Of a stretch of DNA of 64,000 nucleotides, positions 3,666 through 62,654 are shown piece after piece (the stretch's first letter is position 1; every line of letters begins with the position of its first letter). The notes beneath the pieces were generated by a model. That model did not search any database, was not told where the DNA came from, and saw nothing but the letters and a program-made list of their open reading frames with translations. This stretch comes from Nonlabens sp. YIK11 (GTDB taxonomy: Bacteria > Bacteroidota > Bacteroidia > Flavobacteriales > Flavobacteriaceae). Made by a program: the position numbers and the translations under genes. The stretch spans positions 1,321,001-1,385,000 of the forward strand of contig NZ_LBMJ01000001.1 in NCBI RefSeq assembly GCF_001413925.1, read 5' to 3'.

Positions 3666-4418
3666 ATGTCCTTGAAAATAAGGTCCTTCAAACTTATCCT
3701 ATTTGTGTCCTTTCAATTAGTCAAAATACATGCCACTGAGTCCACTAACGAGGATTTGAAAGTTCGCTTTCGCGAAAGCGAACCGCCACAACTCACCACG
3801 CTATATACAAACCACCAGATGGCCGGCAAAGGTCAAATGGGAGCAAAGTGGCTTTCAGAACCACGTAAAAACCTGACATTCAGTATATTGATATCTGATC
3901 TACTTGATGGTTTAACAGATTTTGAAATCAATAAATGGGTGGCCGTTACAGTAGTAGAGTGGTTGCGTCAAAAATTACAAATACAGGCAGTTATAAAATG
4001 GCCCAACGACATCCTGTCAGTAAATCATAAGCTAGGCGGGATTCTAATCGAAAACATCTTACAAAATGGCAAGCGCCAGGCGACCATCATAGGTATAGGT
4101 TTAAACATCAATCAAACAGATTTTCAGGAGCTGCCTAAGGCAATTTCCCTAAAACAGATCACTGGTAAATCTTGGGATCTGGAAGGTTTGCTTATCGACT
4201 TTATGACTTTTTTGGAAAATAGTATTCAATCGCCACAGGAATCTATCGATAGATATGAATCGCTACTTTTCAAATTGGGTCGCAAGACGACGTTTCAATG
4301 TCAAAATGAGGTATTCGAAGCACTAGTTCAAGGTGTGACCCCAGATGGTAAACTAAGACTATCCGTCAAAGGAACTGAAAAAACCTACGGACTAAAGGAA
4401 GTCTTCTGGATCTACTAG
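3666..4418 (+). CDS. birA: Biotin--[acetyl-CoA-carboxylase] ligase
   Basis: Attaches biotin to the carrier subunit of acetyl-CoA carboxylase. It is a catalytic-domain-only enzyme of up to 250 residues with no N-terminal DNA-binding domain, so no BirA-type repressor function is expected. Motifs seen are ATESTNEDL, GKGQMGAKW (the biotinyl-AMP loop), KWPNDI with the catalytic Lys, and GGILIE. The start is uncertain: homologues usually begin only a few residues before the xxSTN motif, so the in-frame GTG at 3705 may be the true start. A copy of the window's palindrome (3763-3782) encodes RFRESE in a variable loop. The stop overlaps that of the convergent SRPBCC gene in a shared CTAG. Confidence 0.92.
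   Translation: MSLKIRSFKLILFVSFQLVKIHATESTNEDLKVRFRESEPPQLTTLYTNHQMAGKGQMGAKWLSEPRKNLTFSILISDLLDGLTDFEINKWVAVTVVEWLRQKLQIQAVIKWPNDILSVNHKLGGILIENILQNGKRQATIIGIGLNINQTDFQELPKAISLKQITGKSWDLEGLLIDFMTFLENSIQSPQESIDRYESLLFKLGRKTTFQCQNEVFEALVQGVTPDGKLRLSVKGTEKTYGLKEVFWIY
3763..3782. repeat. Palindromic element copy 1 (in birA)
   Basis: Perfect 20-bp palindrome TTCGCTTTCGCGAAAGCGAA; one further base pair on each side also matches (3762 G, 3783 C), making this the longest copy in the window. Inside birA it is read as RFRESE. Confidence 0.95.
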
Positions 4419-4801
4419 AGTTTCTCGATACCGTTAGCAAGTTGCTCCAAGAACTTATTGATAGGTCCTTTGATCATCATTGCCATCATGGCATTAAAAT
4501 CTCCTTGAAAAAACAGTTGTGCTGCGGCACCTTGAGGATCTTCTTCAATGTCTGCCGTTAATGTGAACGACAATTTATCACTTAGTGAACCCAGTACAAC
4601 CTTTGAATATGGAGTAGATTCTTTAAGTGTTAGCTTAATTTCTGGCATGCCTTTGAGGCCAAACAGGAATTTGTCTTCTCCTAACAGTTCAAATTTTGCA
4701 TCATCAGGCAAGAGGTGTTTGAAATTCTCTACTTGGGTCAGAAAATTATAAAGTTCTTCTGGTGATTTTTGTGTTTTGGCAACACGGCTTTCTAGATTCA
4801 T
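4415..4801 (-). CDS. SRPBCC-fold protein (polyketide cyclase/START-like)
   Basis: A 128-residue protein that looks like a single SRPBCC (START/Bet v1-like) domain: an N-terminal strand MNLESRVAKTQ, the helix SPEELYNFLTQVENFKHLLP typical of these folds, a run of amphipathic strands, and a long C-terminal helix KGPINKFLEQLANGIEKL. Such folds bind hydrophobic ligands, but nothing here identifies the ligand. It lies two bases downstream of pyrE on the same strand, so it is probably co-transcribed with it. It ends convergently with birA, sharing CTAG. Confidence 0.7.
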   Translation of the reverse strand: MNLESRVAKTQKSPEELYNFLTQVENFKHLLPDDAKFELLGEDKFLFGLKGMPEIKLTLKESTPYSKVVLGSLSDKLSFTLTADIEEDPQGAAAQLFFQGDFNAMMAMMIKGPINKFLEQLANGIEKL

Positions 4802-4803
4802 AA

Positions 4804-5454
4804 TTAGGAGTTACTGTTGTTCCAGTTGCTGGGATCTTTTCTCCAGCTGGTGAGTAATTCAAGAGTCTTACTGTCAAAGTGACCTTGTTTGGTAGCTACT
4901 TCTATCAAGTGGTTGTAGTCGCTCAAAACCGTGAGTTCCATACGGGCATCTTCAAAGTTTTGAACAGCAAAGTCAAATCCATAGGAGAAAAGAGCGACCA
5001 TGCCTTTAATTTCTGCACCAGCATCTTTTAAAGCGGTGGCAGCATTAAGGCTGCTCATTCCAGTACTGATCAGATCCTCTACGATCACAACCTTTTGCCC
5101 TTTATTAAGTTGCCCTTCTACCTGATTTTGACGACCGTGTTTTTTTGCTTCTGGCCGTACATAGATAAAAGGTAGGTTCATATAATCTGCTACCAGCATA
5201 CCTATACCTATGGCGCCTGTGGCAACACCAGCGATCACATCTGGTTTGCCGTAAAGGTGTTCAATTTGGGAAGCTAGATGTTCTCTAAGATAATTGCGAA
5301 CGCTAGGATAGGAGAGCGTGATGCGATTGTCACAGTAGATAGGAGATTTCCAACCACTGGCCCATGTGAAAGGTTTTTGTGGTTGTAATTTTATTGCCTT
5401 TATTTGCAACAGCAATTCAGCAGTTTTTATCCCAACGTTTTTATCTCTGACCAT
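4804..5454 (-). CDS. pyrE: Orotate phosphoribosyltransferase
   Basis: Converts orotate and PRPP to orotidine 5'-phosphate in pyrimidine synthesis. Starting at 5454 gives 216 residues, beginning MVRDKNVGIKTAELLLQIKAI. An upstream in-frame ATG at 5487 would add 11 residues but would remove the promoter box and overlap the NUDIX gene, so I prefer 5454. The PRPP-binding motif VVIVEDLISTGMSS is intact, as are FTWASGWKSPIYCDNR (substrate loop) and PEAKKHGRQNQVEG (catalytic flexible loop). Its ATG overlaps the possible start of the divergent NUDIX gene within CATG. A TACATTTG box ends four bases before the ATG. Confidence 0.95.
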   Translation of the reverse strand: MVRDKNVGIKTAELLLQIKAIKLQPQKPFTWASGWKSPIYCDNRITLSYPSVRNYLREHLASQIEHLYGKPDVIAGVATGAIGIGMLVADYMNLPFIYVRPEAKKHGRQNQVEGQLNKGQKVVIVEDLISTGMSSLNAATALKDAGAEIKGMVALFSYGFDFAVQNFEDARMELTVLSDYNHLIEVATKQGHFDSKTLELLTSWRKDPSNWNNSNS

Positions 5455-6052: not shown

Positions 6053-7806
6053 TTCAATCGATAGATAGGATACGTAAGGTGCGCCGGTTCATAATTGGGA
6101 GACCTTTTATGAAGCCATGACAACTGGGCACCATTGCTGGCGGCAAAACGAGCATCGGCACGCTTGAGTGAGTCAAATTCTCTTTTAAGTTGTTCATTTT
6201 CATCCAGCATCTTTTTTGCCGTAGCTTCAAAAACATAGGCAGAGTAACCTTCTTTTTGCTGTAGTATCGTATCGAAGAAATTCCACTTAAAAAAAGAGTC
6301 AGACATAACGGGCTCTAGCGTTTCTAAAATGTATTTGATTCCAGGTTGTGCCGTAGGTATGATGATATCGCTTTCGCGAAAGCGAACTTTCCCAACCTTC
6401 TCACTAACAACAATATTGCTATGCGGGTAGTGACCTTCATAGGCGTTGCTGGCCGTGTCATAACTTTCTATTTTGTAGGTTCCTACCGTAAAGGTGCTAT
6501 CCTTTTCCAGAGGTTTCATGATCACATTGTTGAGTCTCAATAGATCCAACACTTCCCATTGACCCTGCGGGATCACATAATATTCAGGAACGCGAATGGA
6601 GTCTGTCGCCTTGAAATAGTTTTGAAAAGCCGTTTTCTTGCTAAATGGCTGTTTCCTATCATAAGTCTGTAATTTGTTTCCCGTCAAATCACTTACCTCG
6701 TTGATCGCTTCATAGCCCAAAAAGTTAAGCGTATCGGCCTTAGTTTGATCCAACTCAAAGCTGGAAGCATAAAACGGATTCTCTTGAAAATCCTTGAAGT
6801 TTGACTTTCTAACTTCTTTGATTTTTTTGATGTCCCTGCTGCCTATGGCAATCATTTCTTCCATGATCGCCTTGGTTCCCACCACCCTATCTTTATAGGG
6901 TTTCAACATGTGTGTTTCTACCATCATTCCCAGCACGTTCCACAGCGAAGTGTATCCCGTAGAATATCTGGGATAATCCACAAACTGGCTAAAGCCGTCT
7001 TCTGGCGATTGATTGAAAACGTTTACATAAGGTGTAATAGGTAGCGATCTCTTTTCAAGCGCTTTTTCCAGTGTAGGTTGCAGACTGTCATGCAGATAAT
7101 CTCCTGCAGCTCCGCCCAATCGATTGTGCTGTGTAAAAAGATGAGTCAGGGTATATTGATAGTCTGCACCATTGCTCACATGGTTGTCAATAAAAAGATC
7201 TGGTTTGATTTTATGGAATGCAGTGGCAAAGGCTCTGGCATTGCGACTGTCTGCCTTTATAAAATCACGATTGAGGTCGTAGTTTCTCGCGTTTCCTCTA
7301 AAACCATAAGATTCTGGGCCGTTTTGGTTCGTTCTTGTGGTAGAGTTTCGGTTTAGGGAACCACCTATGTTGTAAATCGCGACAGAGCTAAAGATGACGT
7401 TGTCGTCTACTTTTAAGTTGCCTGTGGCAAGGTCTCGCATCAACATCATGGTGGCATCAATACCATCGCTTTCTCCTGGATGTATACCATTATTGATCAT
7501 GATCTTGATACGATCCTCGTTAGGAGAATCCCAATCTATGCTTTTATTGGAATAGTGTACGACGTGAAGTGGTTTACCGGCATCTGTATTGCCCACTTCT
7601 TCTATCGTGATGGTGCTAAAACCTGCGGCCAGCTGCTGGTAAAAATCAATACATTCTTGATAGGTAGCGGTTTGGTTGCCATTACCTTTTTCAAAAGGAG
7701 TAAGATATTCTGTATCTGTGGTTGTAGTAGCTGAATTGGTGTCATTCGACGTGTCCTTACAACTTAAAACTGCAAAAGCGATGGCTAGTAAATAGGTTTT
7801 TCTCAT
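6049..7806 (-). CDS. M14-family zinc carboxypeptidase, lipoprotein
   Basis: A secreted 585-residue peptidase. The signal peptide ends in a lipobox (VLSC, Cys 16), so it is probably a membrane-anchored lipoprotein. The metallocarboxypeptidase zinc ligands are visible: HPGE with His 109 and Glu 112, and a third His at 209 in DLFIDNHVSNGADYQ; NGARNYDLNRDF carries the usual substrate-binding Asn/Arg region. The last 250 residues form a probable beta-rich C-terminal part typical of the Bacteroidota members. It overlaps coaD by four bases (ATGA), so it is in the ddl-coaD unit. A palindrome copy encodes RFRESD near residue 475. Confidence 0.88.
   Translation of the reverse strand: MRKTYLLAIAFAVLSCKDTSNDTNSATTTTDTEYLTPFEKGNGNQTATYQECIDFYQQLAAGFSTITIEEVGNTDAGKPLHVVHYSNKSIDWDSPNEDRIKIMINNGIHPGESDGIDATMMLMRDLATGNLKVDDNVIFSSVAIYNIGGSLNRNSTTRTNQNGPESYGFRGNARNYDLNRDFIKADSRNARAFATAFHKIKPDLFIDNHVSNGADYQYTLTHLFTQHNRLGGAAGDYLHDSLQPTLEKALEKRSLPITPYVNVFNQSPEDGFSQFVDYPRYSTGYTSLWNVLGMMVETHMLKPYKDRVVGTKAIMEEMIAIGSRDIKKIKEVRKSNFKDFQENPFYASSFELDQTKADTLNFLGYEAINEVSDLTGNKLQTYDRKQPFSKKTAFQNYFKATDSIRVPEYYVIPQGQWEVLDLLRLNNVIMKPLEKDSTFTVGTYKIESYDTASNAYEGHYPHSNIVVSEKVGKVRFRESDIIIPTAQPGIKYILETLEPVMSDSFFKWNFFDTILQQKEGYSAYVFEATAKKMLDENEQLKREFDSLKRADARFAASNGAQLSWLHKRSPNYEPAHLTYPIYRLN
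6368..6385. repeat. Palindromic element copy 2 (in M14 peptidase gene)
   Basis: Perfect 18-bp palindrome TCGCTTTCGCGAAAGCGA. On the coding (minus) strand it is read as RFRESD, the same frame as in birA and the HAD gene. Confidence 0.95.
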
Positions 7807-8258: not shown

Positions 8259-9235
8259 TTCTTGTGGTTTTTTATGGTGTCTTCAATAATGGCAGTCAGT
8301 ACGGTACTAAGTTCTTTACCTGCAGCCCTGATTTGTTGTGGGATGATGCTCTCGCGACTCATCCCAGGATTGGTATTGATTTCTATAAAATGCGGTGTTC
8401 CTTCATGGAATATGAAGTCTGCCCTTGCAATTCCCTTTAATTTCAAAATGCTGTAAATGCGTTTGCTTAATTCTTGAACCGCCAGTGTGGCAGACTCTGT
8501 GAGTCGTGCTGGCGTGATTTCCTGGGCTTTACCCATATACTTTGCCTCATAGTCAAAGAAGTCGTTTTCGCTCACGATTTCAGTTGGAGGTAAAGAATGA
8601 ACGGTGTCACCTATTTGATATATGCCTACAGATACTTCCATTCCATCCAGGAAGGATTCAATGATGATTTCATCGTCCACTGCAAATGCGGTTTGTAACG
8701 CTTTCGCGAAAGCGGAAACCTCATAGACTTTTGAAACGCCAAAACTACTACCACTGCGATTTGCCTTTACAAAACAGGGCAGACCTACCACTTCTACAAT
8801 ATGATCAAAATTAACGTCTTCACCTTCATTAAGATACAAATGCCTGCCGGTATGGATGCTCCAGGGTTTTAACACCGCAATACAATCCCTTTTATTAAAA
8901 GTAATGGCAGATTGATAGGAGTCGCAAGAAGTTTGCGGCATGTCAAGAAGCTCCAGATAAGCCTGGAAAATACCGTCCTCGCCTGGCGTACCATGTATCG
9001 TATTGTAAACCGCATCAAAATTGATACGCTCGCCATCAACATTTACTGTAAAATCATTTTTATCAATGTCATAGGTGTTGTTTTCGGTCTTGAGAAACCA
9101 TCTATTTTTTTCAATAATTATGGGAAACCCCTTGAATAATTTAGGATCTAGATTTTCCATAATGACGTGACCGCTCTTGATGGAAATTTCTTTCTCACTG
9201 GAATAGCCGCCCATGATGACTGCGATGTTTCTCAT
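8255..9235 (-). CDS. ddl: D-alanine--D-alanine ligase
   Basis: Joins two D-alanines with ATP for peptidoglycan precursor synthesis. It is an ATP-grasp protein of 326 residues: N-terminal VIMGGYSSEKEISIKSG, the substrate segment HGTPGEDGIFQAYLELL, ATP-binding VKANRSGSSFGVSKV, and metal-binding FIEINTNPGMS are all present. It is the first gene of ddl-coaD-M14 peptidase. A TAACTTTG box lies 28 bases upstream. A palindrome copy encodes SAFAKAL in the helix after GVSKV, where it fits without any visible insertion. Confidence 0.97.
   Translation of the reverse strand: MRNIAVIMGGYSSEKEISIKSGHVIMENLDPKLFKGFPIIIEKNRWFLKTENNTYDIDKNDFTVNVDGERINFDAVYNTIHGTPGEDGIFQAYLELLDMPQTSCDSYQSAITFNKRDCIAVLKPWSIHTGRHLYLNEGEDVNFDHIVEVVGLPCFVKANRSGSSFGVSKVYEVSAFAKALQTAFAVDDEIIIESFLDGMEVSVGIYQIGDTVHSLPPTEIVSENDFFDYEAKYMGKAQEITPARLTESATLAVQELSKRIYSILKLKGIARADFIFHEGTPHFIEINTNPGMSRESIIPQQIRAAGKELSTVLTAIIEDTIKNHKK
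8699..8714. repeat. Palindromic element copy 3 (in ddl)
   Basis: Perfect 16-bp palindrome CGCTTTCGCGAAAGCG. On the coding strand it is read in the AFAKA frame (SAFAKAL). Confidence 0.95.
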
Positions 9236-12573: not shown

Positions 12574-13877
12574 TACTCATTTATTGTCCTGACCTAACTT
12601 CTAGAAAGCAATATATTTTCAAGCACATCTTCCGCAGGATGTTGGAAGTGGAGTATGAGATCACTGGAGAGCTCAACGTGTTTGTGGGTCATGAGGGAAC
12701 TAAATTTTCTTATGGAGACAAACCATTAGGTGAGGAAACTTTTATCTGGTCTAATGGTTTATTAAGCGAGCACGGTATTGACGATCATGACATCGACATT
12801 ATACAATGGGATGATTTACCGGCATTTTTCCAGGCACCAGAAAGGAGCGATGTTCCTTTCGATATTTTTGCGGCATCGTTTTACCTTATCACAAGGTATG
12901 AGGAATATTTCCCGCAGGTAAAAGATGATTTGGGAAGATACAGTCCTTACGAGAGTATCGCCTATAAGTATGATTTTTTGCGAGAGCCGCTCATAGATCT
13001 TTGGATCAAGAAATTTTCTCAAGTAGTGTTGAAGCAGGATTTTAAATCGCTTTCGCGAAAGCGAACTCCCAAAAGAACTGTCGCCATAGAAGTAGCTACC
13101 TTCAATAAATACAGAAAAAGAGGACTTATTGTCAATGCGACCCTTTTCTCACGACACGTGCGCAATTTACGACTCAACCGCGCCTGGAAGCAGATCAAAA
13201 CCTTGCTCAATTTACGCGAAGATCCCTATGACAACAGTGATGATATCCTGGTACCTATCAAGAAAATAAGGTTTGATAGGTCTCGAGATAGAAAAAATCG
13301 TGCGGACATGGTTTTCTTCTTCCATTTGGGGAATTATAATGATTTCAACACAGGTGTTACCTACAAGAGCAAAAGCTATGTTGAGGCGATCAAACATATT
13401 GCAGACTATGTAAAAGTAGGTTTACGCTTCTCATCAAACACATCCAGTGATGATGTGTATCAAGAAGAAAAACGCTTTGAGGAACTGGTAAAAAGACCAT
13501 TACAGCACACCATGGCGGCAAATTCCAAAATAAGTATGCCAGGACACTACAAGCTGCTGGTAGATACAAAAACCATGGAGGATTATAGCATGGGTTATGT
13601 GGCAGAGCCTGGTTTTAGAGCCTCCACAAGCCTGCCTTTTTATTTCTATGATCTGGATTATGAGGTGCAAACGCCTTTGCTTATCCATCCGTATTGTTTG
13701 CATTATAACACGATGGCATTGCAAACGCGCAGTGGCCAGCAATCCATATTGAAAGAAATACAGGAAGTGGTCGACAACGTGCATGGAAACTTTATCGTAC
13801 AGTTTCATTATGAACATTTTGACCGTGACATCAAGAGTCACGCGTTGGAAATATTAGAATCTATAATAGATGAGTAA
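12570..13877 (+). CDS. Polysaccharide deacetylase-like protein
   Basis: A 435-residue protein resembling the Bacteroidota polysaccharide deacetylase-like group found after radC. Shared features are the N-terminal DUF-type region (PFDIFAASFYLITRYEEY, DDLGRYSPYESIAYK), the middle segment around FFFHLGNYNDFNTGV, and the C-terminal motif DYSMGYVAEPGFRASTSLPFYFYDLD. At the place where relatives have an Asp-containing TxDID or TIDV motif, this one reads AIEVATFNKYRKRG, with Glu instead of Asp, so catalytic activity is doubtful. A palindrome copy just before it encodes SLSRKR. It overlaps radC by four and the HAD gene by eight bases. Confidence 0.65.
   Translation: MILIYCPDLTSRKQYIFKHIFRRMLEVEYEITGELNVFVGHEGTKFSYGDKPLGEETFIWSNGLLSEHGIDDHDIDIIQWDDLPAFFQAPERSDVPFDIFAASFYLITRYEEYFPQVKDDLGRYSPYESIAYKYDFLREPLIDLWIKKFSQVVLKQDFKSLSRKRTPKRTVAIEVATFNKYRKRGLIVNATLFSRHVRNLRLNRAWKQIKTLLNLREDPYDNSDDILVPIKKIRFDRSRDRKNRADMVFFFHLGNYNDFNTGVTYKSKSYVEAIKHIADYVKVGLRFSSNTSSDDVYQEEKRFEELVKRPLQHTMAANSKISMPGHYKLLVDTKTMEDYSMGYVAEPGFRASTSLPFYFYDLDYEVQTPLLIHPYCLHYNTMALQTRSGQQSILKEIQEVVDNVHGNFIVQFHYEHFDRDIKSHALEILESIIDE
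13047..13064. repeat. Palindromic element copy 4 (in deacetylase-like gene)
   Basis: Perfect 18-bp palindrome TCGCTTTCGCGAAAGCGA, read as SLSRKR on the coding strand. Confidence 0.95.
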
Positions 13878-14565
13878 CTTTAAGGGAATCAAGCACGTTT
13901 TTTTTGATCTGGATCACACTTTGTGGGATTTTGACCGAAACAGCAAAATGGCCTATGCACAGATCTTTGAAGAAGAACAGATAGGCCTGGATCTCGAAAA
14001 GTTTATCGAGGTGTACCAGCCTTTGAATTTGCAATATTGGAAACGCTTTCGCGAAAGCGAGATGTCCAAAGAAGAGTTGAGGTACCGCAGACTCAAGGAT
14101 ACTTTTGATGCCTGTGATTTTAGTGTGGCAGACGATCACATCAACAAAATGGCAGATATGTATCTGGAGTACTTGCCTAATCATAATCATTTGTTTCCCA
14201 ATTGTACGCCGTTGTTAGACACCCTTAAGGATCAATTTGAGTTGCACATCATCACCAATGGCTTTGATGAGGTTCAAGCAAGAAAAATGCAGAACTCTGG
14301 GCTATCGCCTTATTTTAAATATGTGCTCACAGCTGAAACGGCTGGTGTGAAAAAACCGGATCCAGCTATTTTTGAGCGCGCTTTGAAAGATACAGGTGCA
14401 ACCATCGGCAACAGCGTAATGATAGGAGATAGCCATGAGGCAGATATTTTGGGCGCTCGCAAGATCGGTTTGCGTACCATTTGGTTCACAGATACCGCTC
14501 ATCATACCCATGATGAGATCGCGGTAAGTGATCTTAAGCAGATTCACTCCTTGCTGCTGCCGTAA
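13870..14565 (+). CDS. HAD-family hydrolase, YjjG-type nucleotidase
   Basis: A 231-residue haloacid dehalogenase-fold phosphatase. Motif I is FFDLDHTLWDF with Asp 13 and Asp 15, motif II is ITNGFDEVQARKM, motif III the Lys in AGVKKPDPAIF, and motif IV IGDSHEADILGA. The Trp after DHTL and overall layout match YjjG, a nucleotidase that clears non-canonical pyrimidine nucleotides, but the substrate is inferred. It overlaps the preceding gene by eight bases and runs 22 bases into the 3' end of convergent rarA. A palindrome copy encodes RFRESE near residue 60, in the cap. Confidence 0.88.
   Translation: MSNFKGIKHVFFDLDHTLWDFDRNSKMAYAQIFEEEQIGLDLEKFIEVYQPLNLQYWKRFRESEMSKEELRYRRLKDTFDACDFSVADDHINKMADMYLEYLPNHNHLFPNCTPLLDTLKDQFELHIITNGFDEVQARKMQNSGLSPYFKYVLTAETAGVKKPDPAIFERALKDTGATIGNSVMIGDSHEADILGARKIGLRTIWFTDTAHHTHDEIAVSDLKQIHSLLLP
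14044..14059. repeat. Palindromic element copy 5 (in HAD gene)
   Basis: Perfect 16-bp palindrome CGCTTTCGCGAAAGCG, read in the RFRES frame (KRFRESEM). Only 1.0 kb from copy 4, the closest pair in the window. Confidence 0.95.
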
Positions 14566-38640: not shown

Positions 38641-38643
38641 GCT

Positions 38644-39018: not shown

Positions 39019-39030
39019 TAAGTAACTGAT

Positions 39031-39420: not shown

Positions 39421-39431
39421 TTAATTTAATA

Positions 39432-39464: not shown

Positions 39465-39505
39465 AGACCTGAATTCACAGTACATCACTTTTAAACAATT
39501 TTATA

Positions 39506-40111: not shown

Positions 40112-40131
40112 TTTTTAACCACATTATTCTT

Positions 40132-41124: not shown

Positions 41125-41154
41125 GTTTTCACCTAGTTGTAGAAATAGAAGACA

Positions 41155-41631: not shown

Positions 41632-41653
41632 AAAACCCTTCATAAACAATTAT

Positions 41654-41690
41654 AAAAGGATTAATGTTTCGGCATTGATCCTTTTTTTTT
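41654..41690 (+). terminator. Terminator of the ribosomal protein cluster
   Basis: Thirteen-base stem AAAAGGATTAATG / CATTGATCCTTTT (one G-T pair) with loop TTTCGG, followed by a run of T. It separates rplQ from the carA promoter. Confidence 0.9.
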
Positions 41691-41695
41691 ATCAT

Positions 41696-41703
41696 TATTT
41701 TTG
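41696..41703 (+). promoter_or_regulatory. -7 promoter box of carA, four bases from the ATG
   Basis: TATTTTTG, then AATT, then the carA ATG. A TTG at 41675-41677 lies 18 bases upstream within the arm of the rplQ terminator and could serve as the -33 box. The spacing predicts a leaderless carA-eno mRNA. Confidence 0.6.
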
Positions 41704-41707
41704 AATT

Positions 41708-44112
<2,405 letters not shown>

Positions 44113-44133
44113 TTGATCTTGTCAATTAAAAGC

Positions 44134-44159
44134 AAAGCCATCCTTCGGGATGGCTTTTT
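44134..44159 (+). terminator. Terminator of carA-eno
   Basis: Ten-base stem AAAGCCATCC / GGATGGCTTT closed by a TTCG tetraloop and followed by T residues, 21 bases after the eno stop. Confidence 0.92.
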
Positions 44160-44216
44160 GCGTTATGAATTTTTGTTCTCCCTATGGTATTTGGAGTGGT
44201 GATGTTGATGGTTGTA

Positions 44217-44236
44217 TTCGCTTTCGCGAAAGCGAA
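44217..44236. repeat. Palindromic element copy 8 (eno-gltA gap)
   Basis: Perfect 20-bp palindrome TTCGCTTTCGCGAAAGCGAA in the 287-base gap between eno and gltA. Apart from this copy, the eno terminator and the gltA promoter box, I see nothing else in the gap. Confidence 0.95.
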
Positions 44237-44365
44237 CTATCTTAAATTAACCTACAATTTTAGTTTCTTGCATTTGGTGACCTTGATTCACTACGATTAT
44301 TCCAAAATTTATACTAAAGTCCGAAACATCAATTGATAAAATTTCAATTTGATAAGTTCCAGTCG

Positions 44366-47740: not shown

Positions 47741-49168
47741 CTACTTACCAGTCGCAATATGTTTGATCATTCCTGCAAAAATAAAATAGTGAAAGGGCAA
47801 CATACTGTACCAGTACAACCTGCCCCAAAGTCCTCGTGGTCTAAAAGTAGCCGTCTGGTGAACGACATTATCTTCATCGATTTCAAACTCTAACCAGGCT
47901 TCTCCTGGGACGCGCATTTCGGCAAAAAGTAAAAGGCGTCTTTCTTGACGGTCTGCTACGAGAACACGCCAGAAGTCCAATGAATCACCAGAATGTATTT
48001 TGGTCTGATTCGTGCGTCCGCGGCGCAGACCAACGCCACCAAAAAGCTTGTCCAGATAACCGCGTATTTTCCAAAGGAAGTCGGCATAATAATATCCATT
48101 GTTGCCGCCTATCGCCCATATGCGATTGAGCGCCTCTTCAGGTTCTTCTGTTTTATAGGTTTGGGCATCGCGCAGACAACCAAATCGTGGAACCTGTTTG
48201 AACTTGTTGATGTTGTACTTGAACCTACCGCTCACCATACTGTCCTTCCAACTACTGGCGACGTTGTTTTGCTCGATTTTGGCAAAAGCCATATTCAAGG
48301 CTTCTTTATAGGTATAAAGCTCGATGCCTAGATCTTCCGCAAGTGAGTTTTCCTTGGCTACCACTTCGACAGACATGCTGTTTACCAGATTGCGTGCTAA
48401 TTTATAGGAAGTACTCGTCACAAAGTACAACCAGTAGGAACTTAGTTTAGGAGTCATGACCGGTACCGTCAGGATGGTCAGGTGCAAATTTCTGTTTTCA
48501 GAATATTGCTGCATCATCTGTTTGTAGGTGAGTACATTCTTGCCGCCTATATCATAGGATTGATTATAACTCACCTCGCGACCCAATACACCTATCAGGA
48601 AACTCATCACATTGCGTATCGCGATAGGATGTGTCTTGGTATTGACCCATTTAGGCGTGATCATGATAGGTAATTTCTCGCATAGATCACGTATGATTTC
48701 AAAGGAAGAACTACCGCTGCCCACGATGATTCCAGCACGTAGTACCGTCGTAGGAATGTCACTTGCACTAAGAATTTCTTCAACTCGCTTTCGCGAAAGC
48801 AAGTGTTTGCTCAACACATCTTGGTTCACAATTCCAGATAGGTAGATGATCTGTTTGCAACTTGTGTGAGCCAGCTGTTCCAAAAAATTGGTCGCACTAT
48901 CGGCTTCCATTTTGTCAAAACTCTCTGTACTACTGGTCATGGAATGGATCAGGTAATACGCCACATCAATATCTGCAGGAATGGGATTGACCTCTGGTAA
49001 GTCCAGAAAATCGATCTCGATAATCTCGACCTGCGATCGCACCTCATCAGGCACGGATAATCGACTCGCACTACGCACGGCACAGACGACCTCGTGGTCT
49101 TCTTTGAGTAGTTCGTAGAGTAGGCGCACGCCTATGTAACCGTTTGCTCCTGTAAGTAGTACCTTCAT
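47741..49168 (-). CDS. NAD(P)-binding SDR-type protein with DUF2867 domain
   Basis: A 475-residue protein with an N-terminal Rossmann fold of the atypical SDR type: MKVLLTGANGYIGVRLL has the GxxGxxG motif (residues 7-13), and YYLIHSMTSS and IYLSGIVNQ follow. The C-terminal 170 residues (RFKYNINKFKQVPRFGCLRD onward, with RVLVADRQERRLLLFAEMRVPGEAWLEFEI) match DUF2867, which has a lipid-binding-like fold. A TATCTTTA box ends four bases before the ATG. A palindrome copy encodes LSRKR near residue 127. Substrate unknown. Confidence 0.82.
   Translation of the reverse strand: MKVLLTGANGYIGVRLLYELLKEDHEVVCAVRSASRLSVPDEVRSQVEIIEIDFLDLPEVNPIPADIDVAYYLIHSMTSSTESFDKMEADSATNFLEQLAHTSCKQIIYLSGIVNQDVLSKHLLSRKRVEEILSASDIPTTVLRAGIIVGSGSSSFEIIRDLCEKLPIMITPKWVNTKTHPIAIRNVMSFLIGVLGREVSYNQSYDIGGKNVLTYKQMMQQYSENRNLHLTILTVPVMTPKLSSYWLYFVTSTSYKLARNLVNSMSVEVVAKENSLAEDLGIELYTYKEALNMAFAKIEQNNVASSWKDSMVSGRFKYNINKFKQVPRFGCLRDAQTYKTEEPEEALNRIWAIGGNNGYYYADFLWKIRGYLDKLFGGVGLRRGRTNQTKIHSGDSLDFWRVLVADRQERRLLLFAEMRVPGEAWLEFEIDEDNVVHQTATFRPRGLWGRLYWYSMLPFHYFIFAGMIKHIATGK
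48787..48800. repeat. Palindromic element copy 10 (in SDR gene)
   Basis: Perfect 14-bp core GCTTTCGCGAAAGC. The left flank continues TC as in longer copies but the right flank reads AA instead of GA, so this is the shortest exact copy. Coding strand reads LSRKR. Confidence 0.9.
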
Positions 49169-49272: not shown

Positions 49273-52200
49273 TTATTCCTTTTTTTCAGATATGTTCCTG
49301 CGATTGTCTTGAGTGTTGCGATCAATCAATTTGTTGAACGGGTCGATACCTACTTCTACCGGTTTCTCATTTACCTTGATTTTGAAATCATTATTGATGT
49401 CGGTTATCTTCAATTTTTGAAGGTACAGCACTTTAGGCTGATCGTTTTCTTCATCATTCTCGCCAAAGACGCCAACCTCTATGTAATCTGCCAGCGGTAG
49501 AGATTCCAGAGCTTTTTTCTTACCTTCTGGAGTGAATGTGATGCTGTCGTTCATCTCGTTTTTGTAACGCAGTTTTCCTTTGGCATTGCTTCTCGCTTTT
49601 ATCACTTGTGCATTGATGTCCACCTCATAGGTACCATCGGCAAGTTGTATGTAGCTACCATCATTTATCTGATTGTCATAGAGCGTGATGGTTTCAAACA
49701 TGTCCTTAATCAAATATTGAAGGCTGTCTGGTGTCGCTGCTCTTATATCATCGACAAATTCTGTAGCGGTAGGATAAGGAGCTCCTTTGAATTGGTACTT
49801 TTCTGCAAAACGCTTTGCCACGTTATTAAAGTTCTTCTCACCTATATAATCACTAATTGCATAAAGAATAAGCGATCCCTTTTGATAGTGAATGTATTGC
49901 TGGTTCTCGTTGTACATCAAAGGATTCTCACCTATGCTTTCTGTTGTTCTTCCCAGTAGATAGCCGTCCATGGCATCTTTTAAGAAATTGCGCATCTGGT
50001 ATTTTCCATTGGTCTTTTCAAGAACCTTGAGCGAACTATATTCTGACATACTTTCTGATAGGAGTGTGGCACCTTTTGCATTAGCTCCTATTACTTGATG
50101 CGCCCACCACTGGTGTGCAAGCTCATGAGCCGTGATGCTAAATGGATAATCTACATTGTCATTGGACTCATCATCTACATCTGCAATAAATCCTATCGCC
50201 TCGCTAAATGGGATCGTATTGGGGAATGCCTGCGCAAAACCGCCACCAGTTCTAGGGAACTCGATAATGCGAGCTTGTCTATGCTGGTAAGGCGTATAAT
50301 TATCATTATAATAATCCAGTCCTTTCTTGAGACCCTTCATCATCCTGTCGATGTTGTAGTCATGCTGTGGATGATAATAAATCTCAAGCGCCACACCTTT
50401 ATGGTTGTCCTTGAGCACCGCATAGCGACCACTCAAGAATGCATAGAAGTTCAGCATTTTGGAATCCATCTTATAGTGGAAGTATCTGCGCCCATCTTCT
50501 TCCCATTCCTTGATCAAATATCCAGGCGCTATCGCGATCTGGTCAGGTGACGTGCTCACGGTCGCCTCAAAATCAATCCAGTGAGCATTAGGTCCTAGAT
50601 AGTTACGATCTCTAGCGCCAGGAGCTTCTGGAGCTGGTAGACGATCCTTAGGCGGTAGGTTATATTTTTCACGCACTTGAGTGTTGCGTATTTCAACTTG
50701 CTCGTTGTAACCTATCGCGGGAAAAATTCCGTTATTGATGAATGTACCATTATCCAAAACCGGTGAATTGTTCTTGAGTAAGGTATTGGGTTCATTTTCT
50801 GTAGTAAATGAAAATTGAAGTGTATCACCTGGCATGAGTGGCGATTCAAATTGATACATGCGATAGTCATAATCCTCGTTGTCATAAACAATTTCGCTGT
50901 TGCGATCCATTTCGATCGTTGTGGGACGATCAGGATAATTCACGTGCAGGGTATCAATGGGATACTGCGTCTGATTGACCATGGTATACGTAGCGCCAGC
51001 CTTGAAATCTCTGGTTTCTGGATAGATATCCATATAAGTGTTGATGGCGACCGTAATAGGTTGCGGCACGCCAGCAAACTTGCCCAACTCTTTTTCAAAG
51101 TTGACCTGTAGCTCTTCACGTTCCTTGCCTGTCATTTGCTCATCCAGGACATTGTTGAGGTACCACAAATAGCCACCTATACCTAGAAATACGATTAATG
51201 AAACTGCGATGGTTGCAGTAGTGGTTGTTGTGGTTCTCGCTTTCGCGAAAGCGAATCTCTCCTTCATACTGCTTCCCATGCCACGACGGTAAAACAAGAC
51301 GGCCAGTGTAAATAAGGCTATTCCCAAAGCAATCCAATACATGCGATACGTGTAGAAACTAGGTAGTCCAACACCATAACCGTTCATGTCGCTAGGCGAT
51401 GGAGAACTGCCACCTTGATTAAAGATGAATTGTCCCTGCTCAACGCCTATCGCACTCATTAATAGTGGTACGCCTACCGCAAAAACTAATAAGGTCAATA
51501 ATCCCAGCCATTTGTTTTTGATCAATGTGTGAACCAATAGGGTAAGTAGGATCCATGGGATGAAATTCCAGGAATTGATGACGTATAAGTCAAAAAGGTA
51601 TAGCGGTATCTCAAAATCAAAGAAGCCGTTGTAACCTTGGATGATCATACCGCTTATCATGACTATTAGCAATAAGGTCAATGTCATGAGGAATAACGCG
51701 ATAAACTTGGATATCAGGATGGTCCAGTTTTGTGTAGGTGTCGCATCAATCATTTGCTTAAGATGTGACGAGTTGGCTCTATCCATAATCAAACCACCAT
51801 AGAGAAAAATCAACAAGTAGATGAATATGGTGAAGAGTCCCGTGACGATGCTGAGCATTAACCAGGTTTTAGGCAGGATACCTGTACCATAAATCTCTCC
51901 AGACACGAGCATGGTCACCAGGGAAAATGCAAATGCGATGACGACAATAATGATAAAGGGCCAACCGGTCACGATATATTTCAAGTCTGATTTTGCCAGA
52001 ACCCAAGCTGTTTTGAGCTGTCCCATAAAAGAAAAGTCTGCAGTGACTTTAGGCATCTTAATGGACTGAATGGTTCCAAAATTGCGCTTGACGGCACGTT
52101 GGGCTTTTTTAGGCTTTAGCCTTAGACTGGTTGGATTTTGTGAAAAATTAAAACCAAATAGAACCGCAAAGAAAATGATGAGTGAGATACCCAACCATAA

Positions 52201-54056: not shown

Positions 54057-55733
54057 GTGATTGTATTGCTGCTGTATTTTATTTTTTTAATTGGCGTCAC
54101 CGTACCCTGTGGATTGCTCATTCAAAAAATCATGAGAATCCAGGCGTTATCACTGCTCGATCTATTCTGGTTAGGCATAGCCCTTATTACCATCATGGCC
54201 GGCGTCTGGTGCTTGTTTCTGCCTTTGGATTTCAAGTTTGTGATCGTATTGATAAGTTCTGTTATTCTCACCATATGGGTGTGTCAGGACATGATTAAAT
54301 TGCAGTGTTCCAGCGCGAAGCAATTTATATCAACGATTACAACTAAGAACTTGGTTTGGGTCGTGATATGCACGGTATTGGTATTGGCAGCTGGAACGCT
54401 CTCTGGTTATGTACTGGATAACGACAGTTATTATTTGCAAACCATCCAATGGTTGGATACACATGGATTGGTTCCTGGAATTGCAAACTGGCATCTTTTT
54501 CTGGCGCAACAAAGTGGTTTTCATATTTTGGAGTCCGCCGTGAATTTGGAATTTTTAGATTTAGAATTTAATGATCTTGGACTTTTCATAACCCTTGTGA
54601 TGATTTTATGGTCCATACTTCCCAGCAGCATTGGGGAATCAGTTTTTCAAAAGGCCTATAGAAATTTGCTTGCTATTACATTCCCATTATTACTCTTATT
54701 GGGAACTGCTCCGTCGCCAGACGTTCCCGTCATTTTGTTGTCTTATTATGTGATATATAAATTCTTGTTTGGAGCTAGCGAGTGGACCAATGTGTTTATG
54801 ATGAGCGTGCTTACTGCTATGGCTTGCTATTTCAAGATTACATCTGTTTTACTGGGTATTTTCCCGTTGCTCATGATATTTAGGCTTAAAGAAGATCGAT
54901 GGCGATCTACGTTGCATTTCTGTGGATTAGGTCTCCTATTTGGCGGATTGTTTATGGCTAAAAACATTGTAGCAAGTGGCTACCCCTTATTTCCGTTGAC
55001 GTCTGTTTCTCTGGATGTCGACTGGCTAGTGCCTGAGGAAATGATTCGGTTTTATACGGATGCGACAGTCGCGCAAGCTTATGGAATTTCCTTTACAGAA
55101 TTGAATCAGGTGGATGGATGGCAGCGTTTTTTGCTCTGGATCCAGCAAGCTGGAATGGAAGGTTTGATGAATAAAGGGATTCTTTTAGTGGTCATCGCAA
55201 GTATTTGTGGAGCCTTTTTTTACAGGCATAAACCCAAAATCGTCACCGTGCTTTTGGTATTTGTGTCGTTTGCATTGATCATGGCGTTAAGTTCGCCGCA
55301 AGCGCGATTTTTTCTTCCTTTCTTGATTCCCGCAACCATGGTGTTGTTGCTTTCCACCTTAAGCATGGCAAGGAACTATAGTTTGGGAATTGCAAGGTTC
55401 GCGGTGATTTCTGGTGTCTCTATTTTGCTATTGCCATCCATCATTCGGCTATCAACAGATAATGAGCGCATGAAAAATGTACCTGAGTTTGAACTTGGCA
55501 ACTTGCTGTTTCCATCGCAAAGAAGTAGGTATAGTGACGCTTTCGCGAAAGCGAACATCAACAACATCCAGTACAACGATCCCACAGGTGATGATTTCTT
55601 TTATGGGACTTATGACGTGCCCTTGCCGGCAGCCCAGAAAGAATATCTGGATTATTTCAAAACCTATTACCAGGTCTCGCCAGAGTATCGTGGCGATACG
55701 CCAGCAGAAGGTTTTAGAGCAGTGAAAAACTAG
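54057..55733 (+). CDS. Polytopic membrane protein (LIC_10190-like)
   Basis: A 558-residue integral membrane protein with roughly twelve helices. I take GTG at 54057 as the start; no in-frame ATG precedes the first helix. Features resemble the LIC_10190 family and, more distantly, GT-C glycosyltransferases: an outside loop GYVLDNDSYYLQTIQWLDTHGLVPGIANWH with acidic residues after early helices, then a second loop SGYPLFPLTSVSLDVDWLVP. The C-terminal 90 residues are soluble. A role in envelope polysaccharide is possible but not shown. A palindrome copy encodes DAFAKAN in the soluble tail. Confidence 0.65.
   Translation: MIVLLLYFIFLIGVTVPCGLLIQKIMRIQALSLLDLFWLGIALITIMAGVWCLFLPLDFKFVIVLISSVILTIWVCQDMIKLQCSSAKQFISTITTKNLVWVVICTVLVLAAGTLSGYVLDNDSYYLQTIQWLDTHGLVPGIANWHLFLAQQSGFHILESAVNLEFLDLEFNDLGLFITLVMILWSILPSSIGESVFQKAYRNLLAITFPLLLLLGTAPSPDVPVILLSYYVIYKFLFGASEWTNVFMMSVLTAMACYFKITSVLLGIFPLLMIFRLKEDRWRSTLHFCGLGLLFGGLFMAKNIVASGYPLFPLTSVSLDVDWLVPEEMIRFYTDATVAQAYGISFTELNQVDGWQRFLLWIQQAGMEGLMNKGILLVVIASICGAFFYRHKPKIVTVLLVFVSFALIMALSSPQARFFLPFLIPATMVLLLSTLSMARNYSLGIARFAVISGVSILLLPSIIRLSTDNERMKNVPEFELGNLLFPSQRSRYSDAFAKANINNIQYNDPTGDDFFYGTYDVPLPAAQKEYLDYFKTYYQVSPEYRGDTPAEGFRAVKN
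55538..55553. repeat. Palindromic element copy 12 (in polytopic membrane protein gene)
   Basis: Perfect 16-bp palindrome CGCTTTCGCGAAAGCG, read as DAFAKAN. Confidence 0.95.
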
Positions 55734-59369: not shown

Positions 59370-60458
59370 ATTCCATATCTGGATATCAAAGCACTACAGC
59401 GTCGTTTTTCCCAAAGAGATAGCGAGGCCTTGCAGGAATTGCAGGATCTGGGTATTTACATTGGTGGTGAGCCTGTTACAAGGTTTGAAATGGATTATGC
59501 CCAATATTGTGGCACTCAATTTTGTATAGGGACCGGTAACGGACTCGATGCACTGACGATCATCCTACGTGCCGAAAAACAGTTGGGAAGACTACCTGAA
59601 AATGCTCGTATACTCGTGCCAGCGCATACCTACATCGCCACTTTTTTAAGCATTACAGAGGCTGGCATGCATCCTATTCCCGTGGATGTCCACGATCTAT
59701 TGATCACTAAGGATGTGGTAGAGAAACACCTTGAAAATGTGGATGCGATAGTTGCCGTAGATATTTATGGAAAACTGGTGGATGATGAGGTGTACGCTTT
59801 CGCGAAAGCGAACCACAAACCCATCTATACAGACGCGGCACAATCCCATGGAGCTAAAACCAGCAACGGTGAACGATCTGGAAGTCGTGGTATGGCCAGC
59901 GCATTTTCATTTTATCCCACAAAAAATCTGGGCGCTCTAGGAGATGCTGGTGCGATCACGACCAATGACGAAGAACTTGCCGTAATGGCACGTCGTATGG
60001 CTAATTATGGTAGGACCTCACGGTTTGTCAATGATATGAAAGGTGTTAACAGCAGGCTGGATCCTTTGCAGGCGTCATTTCTCAATAACAGGTTGCTATT
60101 TCTGGATAACGACAATAAAAAACGGAAAAAGATCGCGCAGGTTTACATGGAGCAGATTGAGAATCCTAGAGTCAAACTACCTCCAACTGATTTTCTAGAG
60201 TCTAATTCCATTCATGTGTTTCCAATTTTTCTGGAAGAAAGAGATCAATTTGTGGCCTATCTGGAAGATCGCGGCATTCAAACCAATAGGCATTATGCCA
60301 TACCACCACACCAGCAACTGGCATTTAAGGAATTCAATGACATGAGCTTCCCACAAACGGAATATCTTCATGATAGTGAGGTAAGTTTGCCCTGTCATCC
60401 TTTACTGGAAGATCATGAGGTCCAGGAAATCGTGATTGCCATAAACGAGTATTCATGA
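59370..60458 (+). CDS. DegT/DnrJ/EryC1/StrS-family PLP aminotransferase
   Basis: A sugar aminotransferase using PLP, acting on nucleotide-linked keto sugars for surface glycans. The Schiff-base Lys is in SAFSFYPTKNLGALGDAGAI; GTGNGLDALTIIL and VDIYGKLVDDE and DAAQSHGA fit the family. The start is unusual: the conserved N-terminus IPYLDIKALQRRFSQRDSEAL is in frame upstream of the first TTG (59430), but no ATG, GTG or TTG precedes it before a stop at 59340. I set the start at the ATT codon 59370, giving 362 residues. It overlaps the flippase gene by four bases. A palindrome copy encodes YAFAKAN. Confidence 0.85.
   Translation: MPYLDIKALQRRFSQRDSEALQELQDLGIYIGGEPVTRFEMDYAQYCGTQFCIGTGNGLDALTIILRAEKQLGRLPENARILVPAHTYIATFLSITEAGMHPIPVDVHDLLITKDVVEKHLENVDAIVAVDIYGKLVDDEVYAFAKANHKPIYTDAAQSHGAKTSNGERSGSRGMASAFSFYPTKNLGALGDAGAITTNDEELAVMARRMANYGRTSRFVNDMKGVNSRLDPLQASFLNNRLLFLDNDNKKRKKIAQVYMEQIENPRVKLPPTDFLESNSIHVFPIFLEERDQFVAYLEDRGIQTNRHYAIPPHQQLAFKEFNDMSFPQTEYLHDSEVSLPCHPLLEDHEVQEIVIAINEYS
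59795..59810. repeat. Palindromic element copy 13 (in DegT aminotransferase gene)
   Basis: Perfect 16-bp palindrome CGCTTTCGCGAAAGCG, read as YAFAKAN, in the helix before the IYTDAAQSHGA cofactor motif. Confidence 0.95.
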
Positions 60459-61744: not shown

Positions 61745-62127
61745 CGACTGCGAACGCTGTCCGTATCGATGCGTCGTATCTCGCGTCCCAGACTATCGGT
61801 TTTTCTTATTTGGATATTATCCTGTGGTTTAGTTACTACCGCCACATAGGTATGTGTGGTATCTGCATCCTTTTTCGGGATAAGCGTCAGTAGATCTTTG
61901 GAGGATTTTGCAGGAATGCTAGTAATGATGGGACGATCTGCCCGTCGACGGAAACCATCGCTCTCCACTTTAAAGAACAGGCTCAAAGGTTTGTCTGTTA
62001 CATTAGTGGCAACATAAACAATTTTCTTATGCTCTTTTCTGACGCTAATCTCGATGCCGTCCGGTACTTGACTGGCATTATGAAACAGAAAGATGGGAAT
62101 CCATAAGAGGTACTTTAACATGGTCAT
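61741..62127 (-). CDS. Small secreted hypothetical protein
   Basis: A 128-residue protein with a probable signal peptide (LKYLLWIPIFLFHNASQ) and an Ig-like strand pattern (EISVRKEHKKIVYVATNVTDKPLSLFFKVESDGF). The tail is rich in Arg and Asp. It is probably periplasmic. It follows the next entry with a four-base overlap, so the two form a pair. I know no named function. Confidence 0.6.
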   Translation of the reverse strand: MTMLKYLLWIPIFLFHNASQVPDGIEISVRKEHKKIVYVATNVTDKPLSLFFKVESDGFRRRADRPIITSIPAKSSKDLLTLIPKKDADTTHTYVAVVTKPQDNIQIRKTDSLGREIRRIDTDSVRSR

Positions 62128-62534
62128 GCTTTTTTATTGAACAATTCTTTGGCTTTCTCTCTTTGGGTGGCAATGAAGTCTTCGCCAAATGCGTCCGTCA
62201 ATTCTTTGTTCTTTTTATTCATGTAAGCCAGTTCAGGTCCTATCAAATTACAACCGTAGAATTCATAGCCTACATTGTAATTCTGGATAAGATATTGTCT
62301 AAAGAAAACTTCAAACTTACTAAGCTGACCCGTCAAACTTCCCAAGGTAACATATACCAGACCAGAGCTGGTGCCTTTCTGGCCTATGGGTTGTAAAACA
62401 GATGGATTGGAATTAGCGACAAGAACTTCTAGATTTTCAGGTTGTTGCTCTGACTTTTTACCGGTGTTGATGACGACTTGTGCCACGCAAAGCTGTGCTG
62501 TAAGGAATAGAAGTAGTAGTAAAGAATATTTCAT
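62124..62534 (-). CDS. Small secreted hypothetical protein, FEKHF-like
   Basis: A 136-residue protein with a signal peptide ending around LCVAQ. The central part (LSKFEVFFRQYLIQNYNVGYEFYGCNLIGPELAYMNKKNKELTDAFGEDFI) resembles small secreted proteins of unknown function found widely in flavobacteria. It is the first gene of a two-gene unit with the entry above. Confidence 0.6.
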   Translation of the reverse strand: MKYSLLLLLFLTAQLCVAQVVINTGKKSEQQPENLEVLVANSNPSVLQPIGQKGTSSGLVYVTLGSLTGQLSKFEVFFRQYLIQNYNVGYEFYGCNLIGPELAYMNKKNKELTDAFGEDFIATQREKAKELFNKKA

Positions 62535-62634
62535 GATGTTTCTTATGGATGGAAAGAAGGTTTATCCTGTTTTGACCAGCTATCTTTGTAAAAGTATAAA
62601 ATTGAGGGTAAATAAGTTACTGGCTTTAGTTAAG

Positions 62635-62654
62635 TTCGCTTTCGCGAAAGCGAA
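62635..62654. repeat. Palindromic element copy 14 (gap before exonuclease gene)
   Basis: Perfect 20-bp palindrome TTCGCTTTCGCGAAAGCGAA in the 180-base gap between the divergent hypothetical gene and the exonuclease gene, about 60 bases before the latter's ATG. A TATCTTTG sequence (62581-62588) on the plus strand upstream could be its promoter box. Confidence 0.95.

Follow-up and report, generated by a model that had tools for sequence, protein, structure and literature searches.

We found that the perfect palindrome GCTTTCGCGAAAGC occurs 752 times in the genome of Nonlabens sp. YIK11, where it forms the core of a symmetric 46-bp site, and that such sites are spaced much more evenly than random placement would give in five genomes of three genera. 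DNA uptake provides the best fit to the spacing, the conservation, the permissive positions and the all-or-none turnover of the sites. By analogy with the DNA uptake sequences of Neisseria and Haemophilus, the palindrome may be a genome-wide motif for the recognition of self DNA, built up by uptake-biased drive, a reading that we hold to be nearly an even call.

Copies in the window and in the genome

The window, i.e. the whole 64-kb stretch of DNA that was analysed, contains 14 exact copies of the 14-bp core. These had been listed in an earlier, sequence-only reading of the window, and all 14 starting positions were reproduced, with none of 100 dinucleotide shuffles of the window containing any copy. 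Eleven of the 14 lie inside plausible genes, as had been claimed. No strand is assigned to any of the 46-bp sites, which are given here with their cores in brackets. The genic sites in the left part of the window are 3750..3795 (3766-3779) in the ORF 3666-4418, with an exact core in 7 of the 8 related species compared; 6354..6399 (6370-6383) in the ORF 6049-7806, exact in 6 of 8; 8684..8729 (8700-8713) in a D-Ala-D-Ala ligase gene; 13033..13078 (13049-13062) in a DUF7033 gene; 14029..14074 (14045-14058) in a HAD hydrolase gene; and 24276..24321 (24292-24305) in the ORF 22988-24637. Further along, genic sites are found at 46877..46922 (46893-46906) in a PF19420, dimethylarginine dimethylhydrolase-type gene, with a one-mismatch form in genome G018; at 48771..48816 (48787-48800) in a DUF2867 / NAD-binding gene; at 51223..51268 (51239-51252) in an M1 peptidase / ABC-2 membrane gene; at 55523..55568 (55539-55552) in the ORF 54057-55733; and at 59780..59825 (59796-59809) in a DegT/DnrJ aminotransferase gene. 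The exceptions are 28175..28220 (28191-28204), which is intergenic and exact in all 5 aligned species, 44204..44249 (44220-44233), also intergenic, and 62622..62667 (62638-62651), which is intergenic or covered by a doubtful GTG ORF of 104 aa.

A stretch of about 16 kb without sites (28205..44219, no strand assigned) holds a block of ribosomal-protein, secY and rpoA genes, in which the four proteins tested (rpsC, secY, rpsD and rpoA) were all matched in NCBIfam. A mobile region as the reason for this gap was ruled out, since it holds that block.

Over the whole genome the sites occur at a density of one per 4.3 kb, and every one of 19 sampled chromosome stretches holds 2-7 of them. With Markov models of orders 1-4 trained on 444 kb of the genome, 0.002-0.024 cores per genome are expected. 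The order-5 model expects 2.1 with the sites left in and 0.005 with the sites masked, and the masked expectations span 0.002-0.012. The reversed sequence, used as a control, does not occur at all. The genome-wide count is thus nowhere near the Markov expectation, an outcome on which the sequence-only reading had staked its claim. In the open-access literature, no paper with the 14-mer was found, and those with the 10-mer are on other subjects by their titles.

Footprint and spacing of the sites

In the window the perfect palindrome reaches 22 bp in one copy, 20 bp in two, 18 bp in five, 16 bp in five and 14 bp in one. Since C precedes the core in 14 of 14 copies and G follows it in 13 of 14, the practical core is CGCTTTCGCGAAAGCG. 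The palindrome and its 16-bp flanks together form a symmetric footprint of 46 bp, with the left flank depleted in C and the right flank in G. The exact core carries 28 bits of information and the flanks about 12 more, whereas about 12 bits would suffice to specify 752 sites; this excess resembles a driven sequence more than an ordinary operator. Each half-site shows the same base preference. An oriented motif was considered and dismissed, as the right-flank excess of the window was gone over 101 sites and both arms were alike in the unsymmetrised table.

Pairing between the flank arms over 16 positions was 6.24, compared with 6.20 expected from independent columns. The arms do not co-vary, which argues for recognition of the duplex by a dimer and not of a hairpin; a hairpin or cruciform was ruled out on this ground, and the site is probably bound by a dimeric protein. 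Longer symmetric copies had earlier been taken as a sign of selection on symmetry; the longer copies are real, but the lack of covariation speaks against selection on pairing. The claim that the palindrome is neither a terminator nor a CRISPR array holds; against a terminator there are this lack of covariation, a 3' flank consensus that has no T run, and intergenic sites that match the background of gene orientations.

Among 90 sampled sites, 66 lie wholly inside called genes and 24 do not, in DNA called as 92.7% coding (P=2e-8), and the genic sites occupy all three reading frames. The DNA around the sites is permissive, with an identity of 0.716 at 24-40 bp against about 0.75 past 80 bp. Over the sites listed first for the five genomes of three genera, the coefficients of variation (CV) of the spacing were 0.45, 0.55, 0.65, 0.68 and 0.69, compared with about 0.98 for random placement, and gaps below 1 kb made up 2/99, 1/49, 2/99, 4/60 and 0/80, where 23.4, 11.3, 20.3, 14.5 and 9.9 were expected. 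The window alone has an unremarkable CV of 0.875 because the ribosomal-protein block leaves its 16-kb gap. Large gaps between sites occur in Dokdonia. A regulator acting at close pairs of sites was also considered and rejected, as the pairs examined lie mostly within single genes.

The second contig, C2, of 29 kb, holds no site where 6.8 were expected (P=0.001). The motif may be excluded from acquired DNA, for which this one contig is the basis, but it is present in segments of G004 and G020 that have no matching site or alignment in YIK11 (46248, 61607), and metal-efflux islands of other genera bear it.

Conservation and distribution in the family

In the alignments, the core stays exact amid flanks of about 80% identity, and where a site is lacking, it is mostly gone altogether. 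In G020 the core is exact at 13 of 13 aligned sites with a flanking identity of about 0.79. Across 354 ordered site comparisons, which are non-independent, 272 were exact, 18 had one to three mismatches and 64 had four or more. Among the 30 ligase loci with the best matches, 5 have the site that lies in the ligase gene of the window, the window's own locus counted. Between Dokdonia and Nonlabens 1 of 13 alignable sites is shared, several of the 13 alignments being weak.

All 22 other Nonlabens genomes searched contain the motif, with 288-857 copies each. A count across Flavobacteriaceae, which had been proposed as a check, was run on 397 genomes of the family: the motif-rich ones belong to Nonlabens, Dokdonia sinensis (857 copies) and one further genus (408), and the rest have at most 19 copies. 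In a five-protein tree of 45 genomes, a clade with support 83 unites Nonlabens with D. sinensis (G250) and G234. This clade also takes in the motif-poor genomes G131 and G188, and therefore one gain followed by losses and several gains are both possible. As possible remnants of decay, G188 has 9 exact and 20 one-mismatch copies; 6 of the 18 copies scored (9 exact and 9 one-mismatch) have flank scores above 0. Nine 20-kb stretches from nine other genera contained no 12-bp palindrome occurring twice that could represent another HIP-like motif.

Possible uptake sequence or other function

The sites share many features with the DNA uptake sequences known as DUS in Neisseriaceae and USS in Pasteurellaceae: there are hundreds of copies, the core is conserved and the flanks are degenerate, placement is permissive, sites are gained or lost outright and not through single changes, spacing has some evenness and the flanks show a dialect between genera. 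Uptake was not among the roles listed in the sequence-only reading. A short palindromic mark of self DNA is known from Campylobacter jejuni, where methylated RAATTY marks DNA for transformation; it has six bases and is read through methylation, and we know of no footprint or spacing of the present kind for it. In the mechanism that we propose, incoming DNA that carries the 46-bp duplex site would be bound there by a dimeric receptor and be favoured in uptake and recombination, so that alleles with a site would displace alleles without one. Sites would build up at tolerant places, in genes and between them, until there is about one per typical fragment (about 4 kb); the spacing would be even because an extra site near an existing one gives no advantage. 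In contrast to DUS and USS, the motif is palindromic, symmetric over 46 bp and found in Bacteroidota, and its density is lower than their roughly one per 1-1.5 kb. The motif-rich genomes also differ in that none of the seven tested has a pilus-type ATPase (PF00437) above the cut-off, and the receptor is therefore probably not on a classical type IV pilus. Among 24 genomes, PF00437 was above the cut-off in one, a motif-poor one, with weak sub-threshold matches elsewhere. ComEC is present in all 24, motif-poor genera included, and is thus not discriminating. No gene beside ComEC was common to six motif-rich and absent from six motif-poor genomes, and a competence cluster specific to motif-rich genera was rejected after comparison of these 12 neighbourhoods.

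Several observations count against the uptake reading. To our knowledge, known uptake sequences are not palindromic. One-mismatch forms number 11 against 101 exact ones, and at USS such forms are commoner than this. The flank rule is weak in G234, and recombination tracts centred on the sites were rejected, as interspecies identity near the sites is at or below background with no rise. The site could instead be bound inside the cell by a dimeric protein that structures the nucleoid, anchors loops or acts in a Chi-like way, with a role in chromosome organisation, repair or recombination, in which case the largest gap would matter and each site would be under purifying selection. Such a role, which we regard as unlikely but a serious contender, agrees with the even spacing, the exact and position-stable conservation within Nonlabens, the palindromic duplex footprint without arm covariation, the occurrence in all sampled stretches and a density near that of Chi in E. 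coli. However, the Chi sites of RecBCD/AddAB are short, oriented and read on a single strand, whereas the present site is long, palindromic, of a duplex type and without orientation. Noc/ParB, SlmA and MatP are dimeric proteins with palindromic chromosomal sites as well, but the sites here are many more and lie in every sampled stretch; moreover, YIK11 has a single ParB-domain (ParB_N) match and therefore no Noc-like ParB paralogue, two or three matches being found in 3 of 22 other Nonlabens. That Dokdonia and Nonlabens have only 1 of the 13 alignable sites in common, several of the alignments being weak, is also odd for a conserved architecture.

The sequence-only reading had compared the palindrome to HIP1 (GCGATCGC) of cyanobacteria, in which case an orphan methylase would modify a sequence in the core and methylated sites would be maintained. 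The likeness stands broadly, as both are highly iterated perfect palindromes acting at the DNA level, mostly genic and lineage-wide, but core and phylum differ: HIP1 has 8 bp, compared with a 16-bp core in a 46-bp footprint, a length well beyond that of a methylase site. HIPs are linked to methylases in passages of PMC4390886. The C5 methylase domain PF00145 had no match in four of the seven motif-rich genomes tested (G000, G020, G016 and G234; YIK11 is among the four), so that a C5 methylase is not needed here and C5-cytosine methylation, as a form of the methylation role suggested earlier, is not general; we consider maintenance by a methylase improbable. It is very improbable that a mobile or REP-like palindromic element was copied into genes, as the hundreds of identical palindromes and the copies in other genera might suggest: the alignment of 30 ligase loci has neither insertions nor gaps at the site, where codons are replaced in place, and the genic location in all frames, the even spacing, the positional conservation and the lack of arm covariation are further points against it. 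A bias in mutation or composition, or selection acting on an encoded peptide, for which the preference for the AFAKA frame (37 of 66 genic sites) could be cited, is scarcely credible in view of copies in all frames and between genes, the masked Markov expectation and the empty reversed control.

Passages of PMC7811141 name two families with short uptake sequences, Pasteurellaceae and Neisseriaceae, both of which use pili according to part of PMC7965970. Counting towards the uptake reading, the portions of PMC2397512 and PMC7811141 considered here describe DUS and USS as strongly conserved, located in the core genome and at permissive spots and missing from recently acquired genes; many of the new copies are said to have diverged too far to stem from point mutation, and molecular drive is reported. 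The distribution of USS is called 'uneven' in the introduction of PMC7811141 and 'relatively even' later, and even spacing is therefore no clean hallmark. The transformation genes reported for Riemerella include ComEC, DprA, ComF and RecA together with four proteins unlike known transformation proteins (PMC8459023, in part); R. columbina is reported to prefer its own DNA, while, against the uptake reading, Flavobacterium johnsoniae was reported not to be competent (both PMC7965970, in part).

New here are the 46-bp footprint, the even spacing, the exact core in diverged DNA and the lack of sites in the 29-kb contig and in the ribosomal-protein block. More tentatively, and at somewhat less than even chances, we suggest that this may be the first uptake sequence of Bacteroidota, a palindromic 46-bp tag of self DNA with a dimeric receptor and pilus-independent transformation, which would have built up in Nonlabens, Dokdonia and the third genus for the most part independently, with a genus-specific dialect. 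Should the site serve organisation or repair instead, it would be an unusually regular system of chromosome landmarks. If the uptake reading is true, a palindromic case free of the pilus ATPase in marine Bacteroidota would make it possible to test directly whether such motifs can arise from biased uptake alone, and it could account for the self-DNA preference of R. columbina described in part of PMC7965970.

Abundance and anatomy of the palindrome

All 14 copies of GCTTTCGCGAAAGC that the sequence-only reading had reported in the window proved to be exact and correctly placed, and shuffled window sequences contained none. When up to two mismatches were allowed, only two further places were found. 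The base 5' of the core is C in 14 of 14 window copies and the base 3' is G in 13. Across the source genome (3,260,677 b, two contigs) we counted 752 copies, compared with 0 for the reversed control and with 0.002-0.024 per genome expected under Markov orders 1-4, so that the proposed over-representation was borne out genome-wide. Order 5 predicts 2.1 copies with the sites included and 0.005 with the sites masked. The palindrome is real, strong and lineage-wide.

A flank profile built from 101 sites, taken from the window and from 19 20-kb stretches spread evenly over the genome (444 kb in all), revealed a degenerate, symmetric signal on both sides of the core. At left flank bases 2-17, C makes up about 3-11% versus a background of 20%, and G and T are preferred; the right flank shows the mirror image. 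Base 16 still carries 0.29 bits of information and base 17 only 0.04, beyond which C stays mildly depleted (about 15%) out to base 30. The footprint thus comprises 46 bp, in which the flanks add about 12 bits to the 28 of the 14-mer, the latter holding by construction since exact copies alone were counted; about 12 suffice for 752 sites. Near misses are scarce (11 with one and 7 with two mismatches versus 101 exact copies), and flank scores are positive for 11 of the 18. The suggestion that selection acts on symmetry as such was not supported, since mirror positions do not covary (pairing 6.24 observed, 6.20 expected); the same lack of covariation speaks against a hairpin. The sequence pattern suggests that a symmetric dimer may read each half of the duplex site.

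The flank rule recurs in 340 kb of Dokdonia sinensis (75 exact, 18 one-mismatch and 22 two-mismatch copies) as a dialect, in which the second flank base is A instead of T and the C depletion extends further out. In G234, from a third motif-rich genus, the flanks of the eight sites read fit the Nonlabens rule poorly, and one-mismatch forms are relatively more frequent (128, beside 408 exact copies), which might reflect decay, build-up or a different dialect. Spacing in G234 (L282, L425) is near 7.5 kb. L282 (G234:C1:1-20000) also holds another word, AACAACACATAACG, in what seem to be about five copies over the 20 kb (five for each of its three 12-mers); as far as seen, it is unrelated to the palindrome.

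Placement, spacing and retention of sites

Of 90 sampled sites, 66 lay wholly within called genes and 24 did not, in DNA that is 92.7% coding according to a crude ORF caller (P=2e-8). The intergenic sites track background gene orientations, with 17 between co-directional, 4 between convergent and 3 between divergent genes, and the genic ones divide among the reading frames as 37 (AFAKA), 14 and 15. The window's 16-kb stretch without sites contains the ribosomal-protein, secY and rpoA block, and the second contig of the source genome (29,179 b) has 0 sites versus 6.8 expected. One site each in the relatives G004 and G020 lies within a segment not aligning to any site here, which counts against strict exclusion from accessory DNA. 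Ten proteins from three of the four D. sinensis gaps above 10 kb included members of a GH109/transporter cluster and of a curli cluster, a MACPF protein and also ordinary enzymes, with acquisition shown for none of the ten.

Spacing was analysed for the first-listed sites of each genome. The first 100 chromosome sites of the source genome have a mean spacing of 3,686 and a CV of 0.45, equalled in evenness by none of 20,000 random placements; 2 of 99 gaps are below 1 kb versus 23.4 expected. Corresponding values are 0.65 and 2/99 for D. sinensis, 0.55 and 1/49 for G019, 0.68 and 4/60 for G004 (contig C4, leaving out three listed sites on smaller contigs; 18 of 20,000 placements as even), and 0.69 and 0/80 for G234 (6 of 20,000). 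Site counts for the 20-kb stretches show under-dispersion (variance/mean 0.49). The window on its own is not evenly spaced (CV 0.875).

Window sites are kept in homologues from G004 (14/14, 95% identity), G020 (13/13 aligned, 81%), G019 (8/9), G018 (5/8) and G008 (7/11), with exact cores and adjacent flanks at about background identity. In 354 ordered, non-independent comparisons among nine species, 272 were exact and 64 had at least four mismatches, with only 15, 1 and 2 at one, two and three mismatches, respectively; random 14-mers were exact in 7.4% of 2,247. The D-Ala-D-Ala ligase gene has a site in 5 of the 30 best-matching loci and the others align gap-free, indicating that codons were replaced in place. 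Identity 24-80 bp from sites is 0.716-0.728 versus about 0.75 farther off. Between genera, 13 of 75 D. sinensis sites could be aligned to sampled Nonlabens DNA, several weakly, and one of the 13 was shared, in a gene that we take from its sequence to be valyl-tRNA synthetase-like. Of 98 Dokdonia and G234 sites compared with Nonlabens, 6 aligned and none was shared. A POT-family transporter gene near comEC (G000 L484:6845-8440; homologue in L488 of D. sinensis) shows 77-81% identity when four Nonlabens are compared with D. sinensis, while the other genes around comEC in the source genome are 29-66% identical to those of D. sinensis; this gene possibly moved by transfer between motif-bearing genera.

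Distribution among genomes

The window aligns with an uncultured Nonlabens at 79.6% across 8,046 bases. Each of 22 other searched genomes of the genus carries 288-857 copies. Of 13 further genera in the family, each represented by one genome, one gave 6 copies and the remaining 12 gave 0, and 23 genomes from other families of the order gave 0 each. In a survey of 397 genomes of the family, 80 had at least one copy, and high counts were limited to four Nonlabens (578-752), D. sinensis (857) and G234 (408), followed by 19, 17 and 16. A five-protein tree of 45 genomes places Nonlabens, D. sinensis and G234 in one clade together with the motif-poor G131 and G188 (support 83). A 16-mer scan of named genomes found at least 111 stretches; among the matches listed, 41 are titled Nonlabens and 50 Dokdonia, 5 carry the title 'Flavobacteria bacterium BBFL7', and the remaining 15 have other titles. 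Twelve of these 15 score below 0 against the Nonlabens flank profile, as expected of chance copies, the exceptions being an Aquimarina, a Polaribacter and a Cytophagaceae bin.

Low counts outside the motif-rich genera are partly clustered. A site pair 933 bp apart recurs in G131 (L285), G259 (L286), G122, G145 and an Aquimarina locus (L077). Several copies lie in heavy-metal efflux islands of otherwise nearly motif-free genera, L286 (G259:C1:1153000-1172999), encoding CusA/CzcA, CopA, a CusB-type adaptor and a TolC-family protein whose gene holds the 933-bp pair, and L288 (G380:C5:45000-64999), encoding CusA/CzcA. Several are also found in L284/L285 (G131:C1:2536000-2572000); efflux genes are shown for L286 and L288 only. 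Such islands would represent transfers out of motif-rich genera. All six copies in G033 lie on one contig stretch (G033:C18:76088-174393) whose start is close to a 616-aa ParB-domain frame; the stretch may be an integrated element. Viral contigs with motif copies and the flank signature (L165/L243, L196, L204/L274, L247/L268/L271 and others) were also seen, a site scoring above 4 in 17 of 120 viral loci; these contigs may derive from phages that infect the motif-bearing bacteria or may be host DNA.

A possible role in DNA uptake

By analogy, the most likely function is DNA-uptake specificity, to which we give slightly less than an even chance. As described in excerpts of PMC2397512 and PMC7811141, the DNA uptake sequences of Neisseriaceae (DUS) and Pasteurellaceae (USS) have a similar signature of conservation and placement, and there too new sites lie opposite unrelated sequence in relatives, a pattern that the Neisseria authors interpret as arrival by recombination (PMC2397512). 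The Haemophilus paper describes the distribution of USS both as 'uneven' and, elsewhere, as 'relatively even' (PMC7811141). In Riemerella, assigned to the same family by the authors of PMC8459023 and PMC7965970, transformation requires ComEC, DprA, ComF and RecA as well as four proteins not homologous to any known transformation protein, according to PMC8459023. PMC7965970 reports that R. columbina prefers its own DNA and that Flavobacterium johnsoniae is not competent. ComEC was present in all 24 genomes tested; that of the source genome is only 29-54% identical to 11 others (L484-L495), below most neighbouring genes. The motif differs from DUS and USS in a classical membership feature, since PF00437 ATPases scored above cut-off in only one of the 24 genomes, a motif-poor one.

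The comparison with the cyanobacterial palindrome HIP1 held in that the motif is highly iterated and lineage-wide; a HIP1-like methylation of it is weakened, because C5 methylases were not found in four of seven motif-rich genomes tested. Occupation of the sites by a Noc-like protein is likewise weakened by the single ParB match in the source genome. The main rival to uptake specificity is some other type of protein that organises or repairs the chromosome. Overall, no account of this motif was found in the literature searched; it belongs with the known highly iterated self-marking sequences, as a variant not described in that literature.
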